DNA from: Salibacterium aidingense DSM 18341
GTDB taxonomy: Bacteria; Bacillota; Bacilli; Bacillales; Marinococcaceae
Length of the DNA stretch: 64,000 nucleotides
Reading direction: 5' to 3'
Assembly: GCF_000429685.1 (NCBI RefSeq)
Contig: NZ_AUCI01000013.1
Coordinates: 62,001 to 126,000, forward strand
In this document: positions 49,512 to 55,955 of the stretch, in pieces
Position numbering within the stretch: the stretch's first letter is position 1
How the letters are laid out: every line of letters begins with the position of its first letter
Notes under the pieces: model-generated
What the model was told of the DNA's origin: nothing
The model's input: the letters and a program-made list of their open reading frames with translations, nothing else
The model's database searches: none
Translations under genes and position numbers: made by a program

Positions 49512-51317
49512 ATGTGTGGAATTGTAGGATATATCGGAAACAATCAGGCAAAGGATATACTCATCAAAGGACTGCAGAAGCTCGAATACCGCGGCTATGA
49601 CTCCGCCGGCATTGCCCTGGTGAATGACAGCGGCGTGGAGCTCCATAAGGAAAAGGGACGGATTGCCGCCCTTGAAGATGCGATTGGAAAGGAAGGAAAA
49701 GGGACCACCGGCATCGGTCACACCCGCTGGGCGACACACGGCGCGCCGAGCAGGGAGAATGCCCACCCCCACCAGAGCATCAGCGGCCGCTTCACGCTCG
49801 TGCATAACGGAGTTATTGAGAATTATCAGCAGCTGAAACGTGAATATCTGGCAGATGTGAATATGGCCAGCGAAACGGATACAGAAGTCATCGTTCAGCT
49901 CGTTGAATCCTTTGCGGAAAAAGGGGAAAACATCGACGAAGCCTTCCGCAGGGCCTTATCATTGCTGCATGGTTCTTATGCCATCGCACTCATCGATAAG
50001 GAAGATAACGATACGATCTATGTCGGTAAAAACAAGAGTCCGCTTCTTGTTGGAGTAGGAGATGACGTCAGCGTCGTTGCCTCTGACGCCATGGCCATGC
50101 TTCATATCACGAAAGAATTCGTCGAAATCATGGATCAGGAAATCGTGATTGTGAAGCAGGACGGTATTCAGGTGAAAAAGCTTGATGGCACGGTAGTAGA
50201 GCGTGATACGTTTACCACGGACATCGATGAAAGCGACACGGAAAAAGGCACGTACAATCACTTTATGCTGAAAGAAATCGATGAGCAGCCGTTTGTTATC
50301 CGTAATATCATTCAGAAATATCAGGATGATGACGACGGTGATATAAAACTGGATAACGCTATCCGGGCGGCGTTAAACGACGCGGACCGCCTGTATGTCA
50401 TCGCAGCCGGCACGAGTTACCACGCAGGCCTTGTCGGCAAAGAACTGATGGAAAAAGTAGCAGACAAACCGACAGAAGTTCATATCGCAAGCGAATTTTT
50501 ATATAATGAGCCTTTGCTGTCCAAAAACCCGCTCTTTATCTTTATTTCACAAAGCGGCGAAACCGCAGACTGCCGCGGTGTACTCGTCAATGTGAAAGAA
50601 AAAGGCTATAAATCCTTAACCATAACGAACGTACCCGGCTCTACGCTGACCCGGGAAGCAGATTTCACGCTGCACACGCATGCCGGACCGGAGATCGCAG
50701 TAGCCTCCACCAAAGCTTATACAGCGCAGATGGCCGTGTTTTCCATTCTGGCGATGGACGGCGCCCGCGCGCAGGGGATCAATACTGGTTTTAACGCCAT
50801 TAACGAACTTGGTCTCATTGCCAATGCAATGGAAACCCTCTGTGACCAGAAAGACCGCATGGAGCAGGTGGCCCGTGACTACATGTTCGATACACGGAAC
50901 TGCTTTTTTATCGGCCGCGCCATGGACTATCATGTCGTGCAGGAAGGCGCGCTGAAGCTGAAAGAAATTTCATATATTCAGGCGGAAGGCTTCGCCGGCG
51001 GCGAGCTCAAACACGGCACGATCGCCCTGATTGAAGATGGGACGCCGGTTGTCGGGGTGACAACTCAGGAGCATGTCAACGCTAACATCCGCGGCAACAT
51101 CCAGGAAGTCATCGCCCGCGGCGCCAACGCCTGCATCATCAGCACAGAGGCGACGAAAGAAGAAGGCGACAATATCGTGCTGCCGAATATCAACGAGCTG
51201 CTCACTCCGCTCATCTCTGTTGTACCACTGCAGCTGATTTCCTATTACGCCGCGCTGCATAGAGGATGCGACGTGGATAAACCGAGAAACCTTGCAAAAA
51301 GTGTGACGGTGGAATAG
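49512..51317 (+). CDS. glmS: Glutamine--fructose-6-phosphate aminotransferase GlmS
   Basis: A 601-residue enzyme catalysing the first step of hexosamine synthesis. Translation starts at ATG 49512 so that Cys2 becomes the N-terminal nucleophile (MCGIVGYIG). The glutaminase domain has [10 protein letters not shown] and [10 protein letters not shown]; two SIS domains follow ([13 protein letters not shown], about residue 347) and the protein ends [13 protein letters not shown], as in nearly all GlmS. The C-terminal coding end is the recognition site of Tn7 TnsD. The upstream ribozyme controls expression. Confidence 0.98.
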
Positions 51318-51384
51318 TTTTAAGGAACAGGAAAATAGATTATGTGTTTAAAAATAATAAAGGCATGAAAAAATAATGAAGTTG

Positions 51385-51432
51385 AAAACTGTCAGCATGG
51401 AAAGACTACAATTTCCGTGCTGACAGTTTTTA
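51385..51432 (+). terminator. Terminator behind glmS
   Basis: Long stem AAAACTGTCAGCATGGAAA / TTTCCGTGCTGACAGTTTT with an eight-base loop and a T-run. Either the native glmS terminator or part of the inserted element. Confidence 0.88.
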
Positions 51433-51459
51433 TTGGAAAATTATAGATGGTCAGAGTGA

Positions 51460-51640
51460 CAAAAAAAGAACACCTGGACTGAAGCTAAGATAAAAAAATA
51501 CATTAAAGAGAGTCGAGGTTATGGAGATCTTTCTAATTATAAGCCTTGGTTAAACAATCAAGACGTTCCCTCAAGTGGAAGATCCCATCGTATTATGGGA
51601 TGACAGGTGGGCAACATGAATTTTTATGTGAATGAAATAT
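51460..51640 (+). pseudogene. tnsA endonuclease fragment (Tn7-like)
   Basis: The frame from 51460 reads WTEAKIKKYIKESRGYGDLSNYKPWLNNQDVPSSGRSHRI, the N-terminal TnsA signature (DVPSxGRSxRI preceded by YKPWL). A stop at 51601 is followed, after a frameshift, by TGGQHEFLCE, matching the next TnsA segment. The catalytic core is missing. TnsA cuts the 5' ends of Tn7-like elements. No start codon with a binding site is kept. Confidence 0.75.
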
Positions 51641-51658
51641 TAATGGATCCATGAATCT

Positions 51659-52362
51659 GAGGATATGTATCGCATTCTATGGATAGATGAAAGCAATATT
51701 ATTGCTTTTCTAATTGATCTTCATGACAGTAAAGCTCTGCCCTTTCTATATTTGAGAAGAAAAAACGTTCTACTTACATTCCAGAAGCAATGGAAAAATT
51801 TAAAGTTACATATCCAACTGTCAGAAAATACTACGTAAATACTGGCAGAGAGGTTTGACGATGAATGCACTTCTTCCGGATTATCGAAATTCAGGAGCTA
51901 AAGGGAAAGAAAGACTAGCTGGTGTGAAAAAGCGTGGGCGTCCGAGAGAATTTGGGGAATCAGGGCCTAATGTGGACAATCAAATAAAAAAAATCTTCCG
52001 TTTGGCTTTGGAGAAGTATTATCTAACTTCAAATGAAAATAGGCTGACAGTTGCTTATAAAAGAATTCTTTGTTGAAAATATTTATTATGATGATGGCAT
52101 TCAAAAGGTGATTATTAAAGGTAAAAATGAATTACCTTCTTTAAGACAGTTTAGATATTGGTATAAAAAAGATTACGATGTTGTGGAATCTACGATAGCA
52201 CGTAAAGGAAGAAAAATCCGAAAAAGATCACCGCGATATTTTAAATCACTCGTTATCTGAAGTTCAAGGACCAGGATCTCGATTTCAAATTGATGCGACC
52301 GTTGGAGATGTTTTTCTTCTATCTAAATACAACTCAAATTGGATAATTGGACGACCGAAAGA
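51659..52362 (+). pseudogene. tnsB transposase fragment (Tn7-like), multiply frameshifted
   Basis: Pieces in three frames join into a TnsB-like N-terminal half: EDMYRILWIDESNIIAFLIDLHDSKALP (51659 on), KVTYPTVRKYY, then MNALLPDYRNSGAKGKERLAGVKKRGRPREF and VDNQIKKIFRLALEKYYLT (51861-52050), IKEFFVENIYYDDGIQK and LRQFRYWYKKDYDVVE (to about 52230), and finally GPGSRFQIDATVGDVFL, which contains the first catalytic aspartate of the DDE integrase core. Similarity ends at ...NWIIGRP near 52362, so the rest of the transposase is lost. At least three frameshifts mark it as dead. Confidence 0.8.
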
Positions 52363-52614
52363 ATATCCGTAGCTTCTGCGATAATAACAGAGGCTGCAGC
52401 CTCATATGCAGGTGATGCAATATTAAGTAGGTTTGGCTATAGTTTTGGTCCATATGGTACAGCTGAATTACTAACAGCATCTTTGGCAGGAGCCTCTATA
52501 GCAGATATCGACGTTATATATGCTGGAAAGCACGGTCATAGAGTTAAAGTAACTATGACAGATTATAAAGATTACCATACCTCTTATTCAGTTCAATTTG
52601 ATTATGAGAGATAG
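52363..52614 (+). pseudogene. C-terminal fragment of an unknown protein
   Basis: Open frame continuing from the tnsB junction: an Ala/Ser/Ile-rich segment (SVASAIITEAAASYAGDAILSRFGYSFGPYGTAELL ...) followed by a charged end HGHRVKVTMTDYKDYHTSYSVQFDYER. It has no start of its own and seems joined to tnsB by a deletion, so it may be the tail of a transposon cargo gene. I do not recognise the family. Confidence 0.35.
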
Positions 52615-52685
52615 TATATATAAAGAACCTAAAGAAATAACGATGGCTTTTATTATGCCTTTAGCTGTTGCATTTCATTTTACAA

Positions 52686-52906
52686 TCAAGCGTCTTCTAC
52701 AAAAGAAAAATCGACCAATTCTTTCATTTGCCGAAGAAAGTTATCCTTAGGAATTACAGTTTCATAAAATCCCAATATGGACTTATTGGAAGAGAAGTTT
52801 GAGAATGTAACATTAGACATCACCGCTTCATAAGTTGAAGTGATGAAGAGGATTATAAGGATTTTTTTTCTTAATTTCAATATTTTTGTAGGGGTTTTTC
52901 AGCAGT
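52686..52906 (-). mobile_element. IS1182-family remnant (transposase N terminus and one end)
   Basis: On the minus strand, from a GTG/ATG region near 52820, the frame reads VTFSNFSSNKSILGFYETVIPKDNFLRQMKELVDFSFV, the N terminus of IS1182-type transposases, and stops at 52686. Just upstream (52892-52906) lies an end-like sequence GAGACTGCTGAAAAA on the minus strand. The rest of the element is missing. It adjoins the Tn7-like wreck, so this site has received at least two elements. Confidence 0.65.
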
Positions 52907-52926
52907 CTCCCCCAATAATCCTCAAG

Positions 52927-52957
52927 ACAAAAAGACTCTCCGAGCGAAGAGTCTAAA
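52927..52957 (-). terminator. Terminator of the YxeA-like gene
   Basis: On the minus strand AGACTCT / AGAGTCT stem with a short loop followed by TTTTTG, 27 bases beyond the stop codon of the YxeA-like gene. Confidence 0.75.
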
Positions 52958-52983
52958 ATATTTCCTTTTTCTAACCATTATTT

Positions 52984-53346
52984 CTACGATTCTAATTCTT
53001 CCTTGGCCGCTTCTGGAACGTCCTCCCAGGACACTTCATTGAAAGAAGTTACATCATTTCCATTTCTCACATAAAGCATGAGATAGGCATCCAGACTCAA
53101 CTCGCTGGTAGAGGAATATTCTACCGTTTCTTCGTTGCCGTTTTCATTGTAAGCCGTCGTTTCATACCAATATGTCCGTGCAATTTCTCCCGAGTCTTGG
53201 GTGTGTTCATCTATTTCTACAGGCTCACTTGTTTGGACATATAATTGATCGGTTCCAATCCGGTTAAAATTGATGTTCGCTAATGCTATAATCGCGCCAA
53301 TAAATAAAACGAACCCACTTAAAAAAATAATTATTACCTTTTTCAT
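52984..53346 (-). CDS. YxeA-like (DUF1093) secreted or anchored protein
   Basis: A 120-residue protein with an N-terminal membrane helix or signal (MKKVIIIFLSGFVLFIGAIIALA) and a small beta-rich outer domain containing YWYETTAYNENGNEETVEYSS and AYLMLYVRNGNDVTSFNEVSWEDVPEAAKEEL, the pattern of YxeA/DUF1093 proteins. Bacillus subtilis yxeA lies near the yxd ABC transporter-regulator genes, a similar context to this one. It is 19 bases behind the permease gene and probably cotranscribed with the transporter. Function unknown. Confidence 0.75.
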   Translation of the reverse strand: MKKVIIIFLSGFVLFIGAIIALANINFNRIGTDQLYVQTSEPVEIDEHTQDSGEIARTYWYETTAYNENGNEETVEYSSTSELSLDAYLMLYVRNGNDVTSFNEVSWEDVPEAAKEELES

Positions 53347-53365
53347 CTTTTTTCCTCCTCAGATA

Positions 53366-55198
53366 TTATAGAACGGTTTGTTTGAACTTTTGGACAGAGA
53401 ACCAATAGTAAAGGGTATAGATGACGATATAGCACAGCATCCACATTGTAACCGGGCGTACTAAATTGATTTGCAGTAAACCTGAAAAAGCGATTAGTGC
53501 AATAACGCTGTGTATTAAACCTACGGTCAACGGTACGAGAAAAACGATGCCGACTTGATGGCGAATTGTTTTATTCCTATCTTTTTTTGGTACGCCGATG
53601 TGATGAAGGATCGTGTATTTGTCTTTATCTTCTTCGGCTTCAGTCAGCACTTTAAAAAATATAATACTGCCTGTGGCCATTAAAAAGACGAGCCCTAAAA
53701 ACGTGCTGACAAATAACGTGATGCCGGTTGATTCGATGGTATCCTGATAATCCTGGGGCGCACTCGAGAAATTTTCTGTTTCGGATGATAATGACTGGGA
53801 GAGCGGCAATTGATTTCTATCATCGCTCACTTGAACGGCTTGAAATTTTCTTTCTTCTGCCTCGAGTTCCCTATAGTCCTGGTCTGTGAACACCAATGTG
53901 TTCGCCCCTGTGGTGTCGACGTTAAGAATGGACTCCGTTATCGTGTCCGACAGCTCATATGAATGGTCATGATACGTTATGGAATCTGCTTCTGTCTCCA
54001 GACGTTCGTTAAAAAAAGGATTTATTAATAGGGCTCTCCCTTCGCTGGGAGATGGTATGTTTTCCCAATCCAGTTCTTCTGCCAGTTGTGTGAATGTCGT
54101 ATGATTGATGACATTGTATTCAAATTCGGCAACATCCTGATCATCGATTATGGTTTTACTTTGAATCGATTCTTGAAAGGTAACGTCTGCGTCGTCCATT
54201 TCTTCTGTTTCTCCTTCCCACATGAAGGAAAAAGGTGTATTTTCTTCAACATATTGATCAATGTTATAATATAAACTAAAGACGACTCCGCCTGCAGTAA
54301 TGGTGGTTGCGCTTAGTATAGAGATGATGGTTAATGTCTTTGCATTTGCTTTTATTCGATACAATAATTGAGATACAGTCCATAAATGAAGAGCTTTCCA
54401 AACCAACGTGTGTCGTTTTCGCAAGACACGAAGGATCGCAACGAACACGCTGCTAAATGTCAGGTATGTTCCTAAAATGGTAAGCCCAATAATGACAAGA
54501 GGCGTTCCGAGACCAATGAAACCCCAGACCTCTGATGTTATATCCTGAAGAGCCAGCCAGTATGCGCCTGTTAATGTGAGGATTCCAAGCACAGTAAAAT
54601 AATAGTTGGTTTTAGGCAGCTCTTCTCCTTTTCTACTCGCAGAGAAAAGTTCAACCAATTTGAATCGATAAACGATGCGGTAGCCCTGCAGCGATGTTGC
54701 GAGAAAGATAAGGAGGAAGACGAGTGTTGTGTTCACGATGGCTTCTGGAGAAAAAATGAAGCCAATATCCAATTCGAGTCCCATAAACTGTAATAGAAGT
54801 GAAAGAAATAGCTGCGAGAGCAGAATGCCAAGTCCCATCCCGATGACTAACGAAAACAAACCAATCATGATGTTTTCGAAAAAGAGCAGCCAGCCTATAG
54901 AACGTTTACGACTACCTAATAACGAATACAGACCAACCTCTTTTTTTCTTTTCTTCATAAAGAAGCTGTTCGAATACACAATAAAAATACTGACAAATAC
55001 GATTAAAACAAAAGAGGATGCGTTCAACACGCTGCTTATTTGCTGCGATGTGTCGGACACCGCATTAATTTCTTCATTATATTGAAGGGTCACAAAAGTA
55101 AAATAGATTAGGATAGAAAAAATAGTAGAACCGACATACAAGCCATAGCTTTTCAGGTTACGTTTGATGTTTTTTCGTGCAAGACTAAATAGTGTCAT
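53366..55198 (-). CDS. Bce/Yxd-type ABC transporter permease (antimicrobial peptide type)
   Basis: A 610-residue FtsX-family permease with about ten membrane segments and a large extracellular domain between segments seven and eight (about residues 305-505), the hallmark of BceB/YxdM/VraG proteins that sense and remove peptide antibiotics. The N terminus MTLFSLARKNIKRNLKSYGLYVGSTIFSI is typical. ATG 55198 overlaps the ATPase stop by 14 bases; the longer frame from 55228 was rejected. Divergent from a two-component system. Confidence 0.9.
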   Translation of the reverse strand: MTLFSLARKNIKRNLKSYGLYVGSTIFSILIYFTFVTLQYNEEINAVSDTSQQISSVLNASSFVLIVFVSIFIVYSNSFFMKKRKKEVGLYSLLGSRKRSIGWLLFFENIMIGLFSLVIGMGLGILLSQLFLSLLLQFMGLELDIGFIFSPEAIVNTTLVFLLIFLATSLQGYRIVYRFKLVELFSASRKGEELPKTNYYFTVLGILTLTGAYWLALQDITSEVWGFIGLGTPLVIIGLTILGTYLTFSSVFVAILRVLRKRHTLVWKALHLWTVSQLLYRIKANAKTLTIISILSATTITAGGVVFSLYYNIDQYVEENTPFSFMWEGETEEMDDADVTFQESIQSKTIIDDQDVAEFEYNVINHTTFTQLAEELDWENIPSPSEGRALLINPFFNERLETEADSITYHDHSYELSDTITESILNVDTTGANTLVFTDQDYRELEAEERKFQAVQVSDDRNQLPLSQSLSSETENFSSAPQDYQDTIESTGITLFVSTFLGLVFLMATGSIIFFKVLTEAEEDKDKYTILHHIGVPKKDRNKTIRHQVGIVFLVPLTVGLIHSVIALIAFSGLLQINLVRPVTMWMLCYIVIYTLYYWFSVQKFKQTVL

Positions 55199-55955
55199 GA
55201 TGACTCCCACTTTTTTCCGCCAATTCATTTAGGATGTTTTGATAGAAATCTCTTCGTGATTGATTGCTGCGGTAAATCTCTTTGGACAACTGGCCGTCTT
55301 CGAGAAACAAGATTCTTCGGCAGAAGCTTGCTGCGAACGGATCATGTGTCACCATCAAAATGGTGTTCTCGTTGGTTTGATTTAAGGTCTGCATTCTTTC
55401 CAATAAATCTGTTGCTGATTTTGAATCAAGGGCCCCGGTTGGCTCATCAGCAAATAGTAATTTCGGGTCCGAAATAAGGGCGCGGCACGCTGCCGTACGC
55501 TGTTTTTGTCCCCCTGAAATCTCATAAGGGTATTTGTCCATTATGGTATGAATTTCGAAGGTTTCTGTGATCTCCTGCACCTTTTTTTTCATTTGATGGA
55601 CACTATTTCTCGCGATCGCAAGAGGCAGTAAAATGTTCTCTTTCACGGTCAACGAATCGAGCAAGTTATAGTCTTGAAAGATGAAACCCAAATTCTTGCG
55701 GCGGAAATCTGCTAATGGTTGATCTTTCATGGCTGCAATATTTGTATCTTCCATGTGAATATCCCCTGCTGTAGGAGTGTCAATGGTTGCTAACACATTC
55801 AGCAGCGTTGATTTTCCTGATCCGGACGGCCCCATGATTCCGACAAATCCTCCATGCTCAATTGTAAAAGATATATCTTTGAGTGCTCGAAATGTATTCG
55901 TGCCTTTCCCGTACGTTTTAGATAGTTGGCTCACTGTAACTAATGATTGCATCAT
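55185..55955 (-). CDS. Bce/Yxd-type ABC transporter ATPase
   Basis: A 256-residue ATPase. Walker A is GPSGSGKST (about residues 41-49), the Q loop follows in FIFQDYNLLDSLTVKENILLPL, the signature is ISGGQKQRTAACRAL, and Walker B is LLFADEPTGALDSKS, all typical of the LolD/BceA group. It powers the downstream permease. Start ATG 55955 or the adjacent ATG 55952. The promoter region carries an 11-bp-phased array of candidate regulator sites. Confidence 0.94.
   Translation of the reverse strand: MMQSLVTVSQLSKTYGKGTNTFRALKDISFTIEHGGFVGIMGPSGSGKSTLLNVLATIDTPTAGDIHMEDTNIAAMKDQPLADFRRKNLGFIFQDYNLLDSLTVKENILLPLAIARNSVHQMKKKVQEITETFEIHTIMDKYPYEISGGQKQRTAACRALISDPKLLFADEPTGALDSKSATDLLERMQTLNQTNENTILMVTHDPFAASFCRRILFLEDGQLSKEIYRSNQSRRDFYQNILNELAEKSGSHHDTI

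Follow-up and report, generated by a model that had tools for sequence, protein, structure and literature searches.

The glmS gene is an essential cell-wall gene. Canonical Tn7 (TnsABCDE) inserts behind it with its right end 25 bp past the stop codon, as in Escherichia coli ABW_A19 (locus L225), where the transposon separates the native hairpin from its T run. The order in Tn7 is glmS, right end and tnsA, followed by a DDE transposase gene (plasmid-borne copy L182); the end reads TGTG, and in L182 a hairpin with a T run directly precedes tnsA. The available part of PMC2918618 places the TnsD recognition site of Tn7 at the 3' end of glmS, and in the available part of PMC2359905 BCEGI-1 of Bacillus cereus ATCC 10987 is a TnsABCD element behind the same gene. 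We analyzed a 64 kb stretch (the window) of a 4.4 Mb Salibacterium genome, in which comparison with intact elements supports reading the sequence behind glmS as the wreck of a Tn7-like element that occupies the attTn7 position in the order and orientation of Tn7. The locus shares with Tn7 its insertion point, gene order, TGTG end and hairpin before tnsA. Unlike Tn7, it has broken genes and a different end sequence; no TnsC or TnsD was detected in the window, and no convincing left end was recovered. The site is also that of BCEGI-1, whose gene set matches the intact relatives of the window element, but in contrast to Bacillus elements of the BCEGI-1 type the window holds a remnant only. The relic as such is ordinary, one more case at a well-known insertion site; the predicted terminator is probably part of the element, and this feature, treated as a complication in an earlier note made from the sequence alone, is the most interesting part of the finding.

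The window glmS is intact (49512 to 51317, forward strand, from the ORF list) and 89-92% identical in three congeners (92% in Salibacterium halotolerans, genome G003, and 89% in S. salarium), and its 3' end encodes the 15-residue stretch that is the TnsD recognition region in Tn7. When all 2387 stop-to-stop pieces of at least 15 residues from the six frames of the window were searched with profiles built from intact elements, one TnsA and five TnsB pieces emerged downstream of glmS on the forward strand, colinear and in Tn7 order, with changing frames and with deletions. The tnsA remnant (51469-51600) covers residues 6-47 of about 278 with a profile E of 1.4e-14, and shares 51-62% identity with TnsA of genomes G058, G071 and G069 across 39-43 residues. 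The tnsB remnants begin with residues 14-45 and 100-129 in two frames (51653-51834; E 2e-5 and 0.13, the latter weak by itself and colinear with the other pieces) and continue with residues 125-209 (51819-52070; E 3e-30; 61% identity to G075 over 66 residues), 206-270 (52048-52242; E 2e-17) and 260-310, the start of the catalytic core (52208-52360; E 1e-19; 69% identity to G075 over 51 residues). Recognizable tnsA and tnsB DNA thus extends from 51469 to 52360, and the profile matches bear out the earlier description of tnsA and tnsB fragments following glmS in Tn7 order and orientation, with a recognizable TnsB core start. The frame changes five times between neighboring pieces, the earlier note having proposed at least four frameshifts or stops in all; one of the changes falls between tnsA and tnsB. 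At this junction some 0.7 kb of coding sequence has gone, corresponding to some 230 TnsA residues and the first 13 of TnsB. In the six frames of the window the profiles detected neither TnsA residues 48-278 nor TnsB residues 1-13, 46-99 and 311-720, so that the catalytic core past residue 310 was not seen, and they returned no further TnsA or TnsB match up to an E of 1. No credible match to TnsC or TnsD was present in the window (best E 0.011 and 0.2, elsewhere and noise-like), and the locus is therefore described as a remnant of a TnsABCD element rather than a working member.

Intact counterparts were identified in other genomes. The 71-residue TnsB piece has matches in 30 of the 199 genomes searched, its own included, and in G075, G008, G098, G058, G041 and G086 a TnsB match lies 1.4 to 2.4 kb past glmS on the same strand. 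The G058 element consists of four genes, assigned by Pfam to TnsA, a Mu-type transposase C-terminal domain, AAA with TniB, and TnsD with TniQ; its TnsD matches PF15978 at an E of 1e-96, and its TnsB aligns with Tn7 TnsB (7pik) at 3e-113, spanning residues 4-689 of 718. The comparison of glmS downstream regions that the earlier note had called for thus places the TnsA and TnsB counterparts in TnsABCD elements. Because the intact G058 element carries TnsD and the insertion point is exact, we infer, soundly in our view, that TnsD-type targeting would have operated in this lineage, as had been claimed. In G075, two tnsB copies lie 20 kb apart downstream of one glmS (L076 and L077), and the tnsA and tnsB near glmS are each broken into two frames.

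The putative right end of the window element occupies 51343-51384 on the forward strand, a placement based on the position in relatives. It opens with a TGTG starting at 51343, exactly 25 bases past the glmS stop, the end candidate already pointed out in the earlier note. Of 101 genomes surveyed, 97 were retained (G011 and G088 lacked a full glmS match, the G084 gene was truncated and G044 had 28 bases after the stop); TGT stands at offset 25 in 23 of these, the window included, compared with a mean of 2.4 over the other 65 offsets, and at offsets 23 and 24 in 9 and 12 genomes. The proposed search for TnsB-site repeats succeeded in part: alignment by eye with the ends in other genomes shows two such repeats at about 51350-51363 and 51368-51384, but they have diverged, and a strict right-end pattern found in 21 of the 97 genomes (shuffled sequences: mean 1.2, maximum 4) matched neither the window nor its congeners G002 and G003. 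For the left end, one loose pattern run over 51451-54000 yielded a lone, unconvincing candidate at 53034, within a host-type ORF and without repeats. For a target duplication, sought as one 8-base string, GATTA stands before the right end and ACAGATTA was located at 52558, inside an ORF and without end-like context, and comparison with relatives showed no empty site of the window species. The same genome carries a second glmS on contig C17 (L075), 43-44% identical and ending in the same 15 residues; by eye, no TGTG or TnsB-type end is present in the 200 bases downstream of it.

Between the end and the tnsA remnant lies a predicted intrinsic terminator (51383-51434, forward strand) assembled from a 21-bp stem (51383-51403 paired with 51412-51432), an 8-nt loop and a T run at 51427-51431. 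The hairpin at 51383-51432 folds at -32 kcal/mol with a z score of -9.9, a stable stem followed by a T run as expected of an intrinsic terminator, and TACAAT lies at its loop (51407-51412). The next hairpin terminator on the same strand, searched up to 53400 at a threshold of -12 kcal/mol, is at 53086 (-13.6 kcal/mol). When the DNA behind glmS was compared with that of G003 by blastn (6.6 versus 9.9 kb, E up to 0.01), the sole shared sequence was 73 bp at 84% identity, corresponding to window positions 51382-51447 around the hairpin; G001 and G002 gave no blastn match behind glmS at an E of 0.01. The congener G002 has a right end like that of G003 without the window hairpin and with a different terminator farther on, and the window hairpin is therefore not indispensable. 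Selective retention is further weakened in that the hairpin sequence shared by the window genome and G003 could reflect common descent together with chance. Taken as a whole, the arrangement suggests that the element brought its own terminator, which probably still ends glmS transcripts.

Is such a hairpin a general property of these elements? We examined 36 loci, 35 of which had a usable TnsA start (29 from one 30-locus list; L199 had none), and in 12 of the 35 glmS was found to end 131 to 474 bases upstream of tnsA. All 12 of these glmS-adjacent loci carry a terminator at least as stable as -10 kcal/mol in the 150 bases preceding tnsA, or in the shorter interval where glmS is nearer. The count overstates independence, since the elements are relatives of one another and were ordered by their similarity to TnsA of G058; L197 belongs to the survey set as well, and the tnsA frames of L200 and L204 are short. 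The corresponding figure was 7 of the 23 loci without a glmS end within 900 bases (Fisher 6e-5), and 9% in shuffled sequences. Both L184, a plasmid copy with no preceding glmS, and the plasmid-borne canonical Tn7 of L182 hold the hairpin inside the element. Outside the 36-locus set, G065 combines a right end and an intact tnsA with no terminator at -12 kcal/mol, its best structure (-11.1) being formed by the end repeats. The hairpin thus lies within the right end and recurs regularly, if not universally, in elements next to glmS. For the native state we turned to the 61 genomes lacking a right-end call. A terminator is present in 59 of them; the first one spans offset 25 in 32 genomes and lies wholly behind it in 27 (some of which, such as G009, G017, G030, G036, G066 and G086, may be uncalled relics with end-like repeats by eye), and in none of the 59 does it lie wholly before +25. 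An insertion at +25 therefore cuts or displaces the native terminator. In G047, G059 and G070, terminators similar to the elements' CCCCTTTGG...AAAGGGG hairpin begin +33, +32 and +16 past glmS with no right end preceding them by eye; these could represent either the final vestige of an element or a source of the element hairpin.

Three other readings of the locus deserve consideration. That the similarity is due to chance or to another type of gene might be suggested by the single pieces, which matched no Tns family in Pfam or NCBIfam and gave only sub-threshold matches to other families; colinear profile matches reaching 3e-30 in the TnsA and TnsB searches, together with the exact placement, leave this practically without credence. 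PF08722 had no match across the window's own genome up to an E of 10 because the surviving TnsA piece precedes that domain, which begins at residue 70. It is very improbable that the relic is young and could still be mobilized in trans by a related Tn7-like element. A right end opening with TGTG at the correct place would fit such mobility, which is opposed by the failure to find a convincing left end and by the genome itself, in which there is no PF08722 match, no second match to the TnsB piece and no second copy of the relic DNA.

Somewhat less remote, yet still improbable, is the alternative raised in the earlier note, that the hairpin is the intact native glmS terminator and the transposon landed just past it. 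The hairpin is shared with G003, where no tnsA was found, and an insertion of this kind has a counterpart in E. coli LR-64-1 (L224), where the Tn7 end lies 61 bases past the stop, behind an apparently intact native terminator and away from the usual place. Against this, the TGTG at +25 precedes the hairpin in the window, the order of end, hairpin and tnsA holds in 12 of 12 glmS-adjacent elements, and the plasmid copies L184 and L182 carry the hairpin within the element.

We therefore return to an element-borne terminator. Very probably, the history comprises a TnsABCD-type insertion at +25, decay of the genes, and retention of the element's terminator as that of glmS. A TnsABCD-type Tn7-like transposon entered 25 bp past the glmS stop in an ancestor of the window Salibacterium. 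Its right end would have borne an intrinsic terminator placed after the TnsB sites and ahead of tnsA, an arrangement seen in many relatives and presumed for the window element. The insertion would have cut or displaced the native glmS terminator, making the element hairpin the only strong terminator found nearby. Frameshifts and deletions then reduced the transposase genes to the one tnsA and five tnsB pieces observed, while the hairpin appears to have been kept as the remainder decayed, a retention suggested because of its position, its conservation and the lack of another terminator nearby.

The fate of the window element is not isolated. A mechanical rule, which required TGT at +24, +25 or +26 and excluded genomes with a terminator call ahead of +45, selected 32 of the 97 genomes, from 20 families, and 30 of the 32 have a hairpin terminator farther on; the rule dropped G010, G018, G032, G038, G067 and G074 for an earlier terminator call, which in G067 and G074 is made by the end repeats. 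A near-complete, single-frame tnsA lies close behind the end in only four of the 32 (G041, G058, G065 and G098). A tnsA profile match (E below 1e-4, first 1.5 kb) was absent from 22 of the 32, a figure that overstates full loss since G040, G068 and G033 offer only 144, 247 and 598 bases of sequence and inspection by eye reveals short tnsA starts in G005, G015, G061 and G100. Within the available stretch, up to 12 kb, 7 of 98 genomes have a tnsA frame that reaches 200 residues or more. We conclude that relics appear to be the rule at the glmS site and that what is left is usually the hairpin, the simplest reason being that it would end the glmS message.

We also make a broader and more tentative proposal, one that we consider nearly as likely right as wrong: many right ends of glmS-inserted Tn7-like elements may be nested promoter-in-terminator insulators, and the hairpins of dead elements may have repeatedly replaced the native glmS terminator across the bacterial order. 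In this model the -10 box of the tnsAB promoter would lie in the hairpin loop, so that read-through RNA from glmS would fold the hairpin and stop, whereas RNA from the element's own promoter would start past the 5' arm and escape termination. In one subtype, folded read-through RNA would also hide the tnsA ribosome site, and on death of the element the hairpin would persist as the glmS terminator.

Because the strict right-end pattern had passed over the window, G002 and G003, we scored promoters on a right-end set of 34 genomes chosen by eye, less G060 and G065, which lack a terminator at threshold (leaving 32), and as comparison the 64 other genomes less four without a terminator at threshold (leaving 60); the hairpin scored was the first starting at or beyond +45 in the right-end set and simply the first in the comparison genomes. 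With a matrix from the promoter consensus, a cut of 6 and sequences that are related, a promoter with its -10 at the loop reached at least 6 in 19 of 32 right-end hairpins and in 3 of 60 others (Mann-Whitney 5e-8); shifted positions around these right-end hairpins reached it in 19 of 128 cases (1e-6). In the TnsA set, 9 of the 12 glmS-adjacent hairpins scored at least 6 (Fisher 5e-7 versus 3 of 60), and the canonical Tn7 hairpin contains TTGTAA and TATGCT separated by 17 bases. The window itself scores 4.1, below the cut, with 19 bases between TTGAAA and TACAAT. Also weighing against the proposal are the 13 of 32 right-end hairpins below 6, the comparison hairpins of G095, G059 and G036 that reach 6 or more, and the exceptional G065.

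Concealment of the ribosome site was most consistent in the subtype whose hairpin adjoins tnsA, where an AAAGGG ribosome site in the 3' arm is fully paired in the long RNA in seven of seven cases, the plasmid copy L184 included; here, however, transcription from the element's own promoter is predicted to begin within the ribosome site, 13 bases ahead of the start codon, so that the resulting RNA may retain the site only in part. In the other glmS-adjacent loci (L198, L203, L207, L215, L216 and L080) the site lies past the hairpin and is not reliably hidden, and in three of them (L198, L216 and, to a slight degree, L215) the long RNA leaves it more accessible than the predicted own RNA does.

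Part of this arrangement may have been seen before. Work by Gay et al. in 1986 on Tn7 in the E. coli glmS terminator reportedly placed the glmS RNA end inside the Tn7 end, which would make part of the promoter-in-terminator case already known. In IS10 and IS50, transcripts that enter from outside fold into a translation-blocking hairpin, one that transcripts of the element's own promoter are unable to form. The model resembles these elements in that only outside RNA folds, and differs in that an end to transcription is predicted here, with the ribosome site also hidden in one subtype. A right-end palindrome is likewise known from VchCAST (Tn6677), 97-107 bp from the end, where earlier work suggested a role in tnsABC transcription, although the subject in the available part of that paper is integration orientation and not termination of a neighboring gene (PMC10201428). 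We found no description of a promoter-in-hairpin arrangement in Tn7 in the literature searched, including the available parts of PMC2918618, PMC2359905, PMC11406308, PMC12823268 and PMC10201428, and word searches of PMC5006887 and PMC8450116 were blank. If the model is true, the element would shut glmS transcription out of its transposase genes while keeping its own. The comparison offers a possible reason for the mildness of Tn7-like insertions behind an essential gene, as the terminator is usually carried along and the destroyed function restored, and suggests how an element may keep the transcription of a busy neighbor out of its transposase genes.

Downstream of the recognizable tnsB DNA, a truncated non-Tns ORF (52339-52614, forward strand) has no Pfam or NCBIfam assignment and matches 3 of 199 genomes, its own included. 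Its relatives are a protein of 145 residues in L186 and, in L187, a frame broken into parts of 83 and 81 residues, both with signal-peptide-like starts; they adjoin a 63-residue membrane-type ORF near replication-like ORFs and are bacteriocin-like, names given by eye, and the window ORF is possibly a cargo remnant. ABC transporter genes (53366-55955) adjoin the relic, and this neighborhood looks particular to the window genome because the permease has matches of only 27-30% in three congeners.
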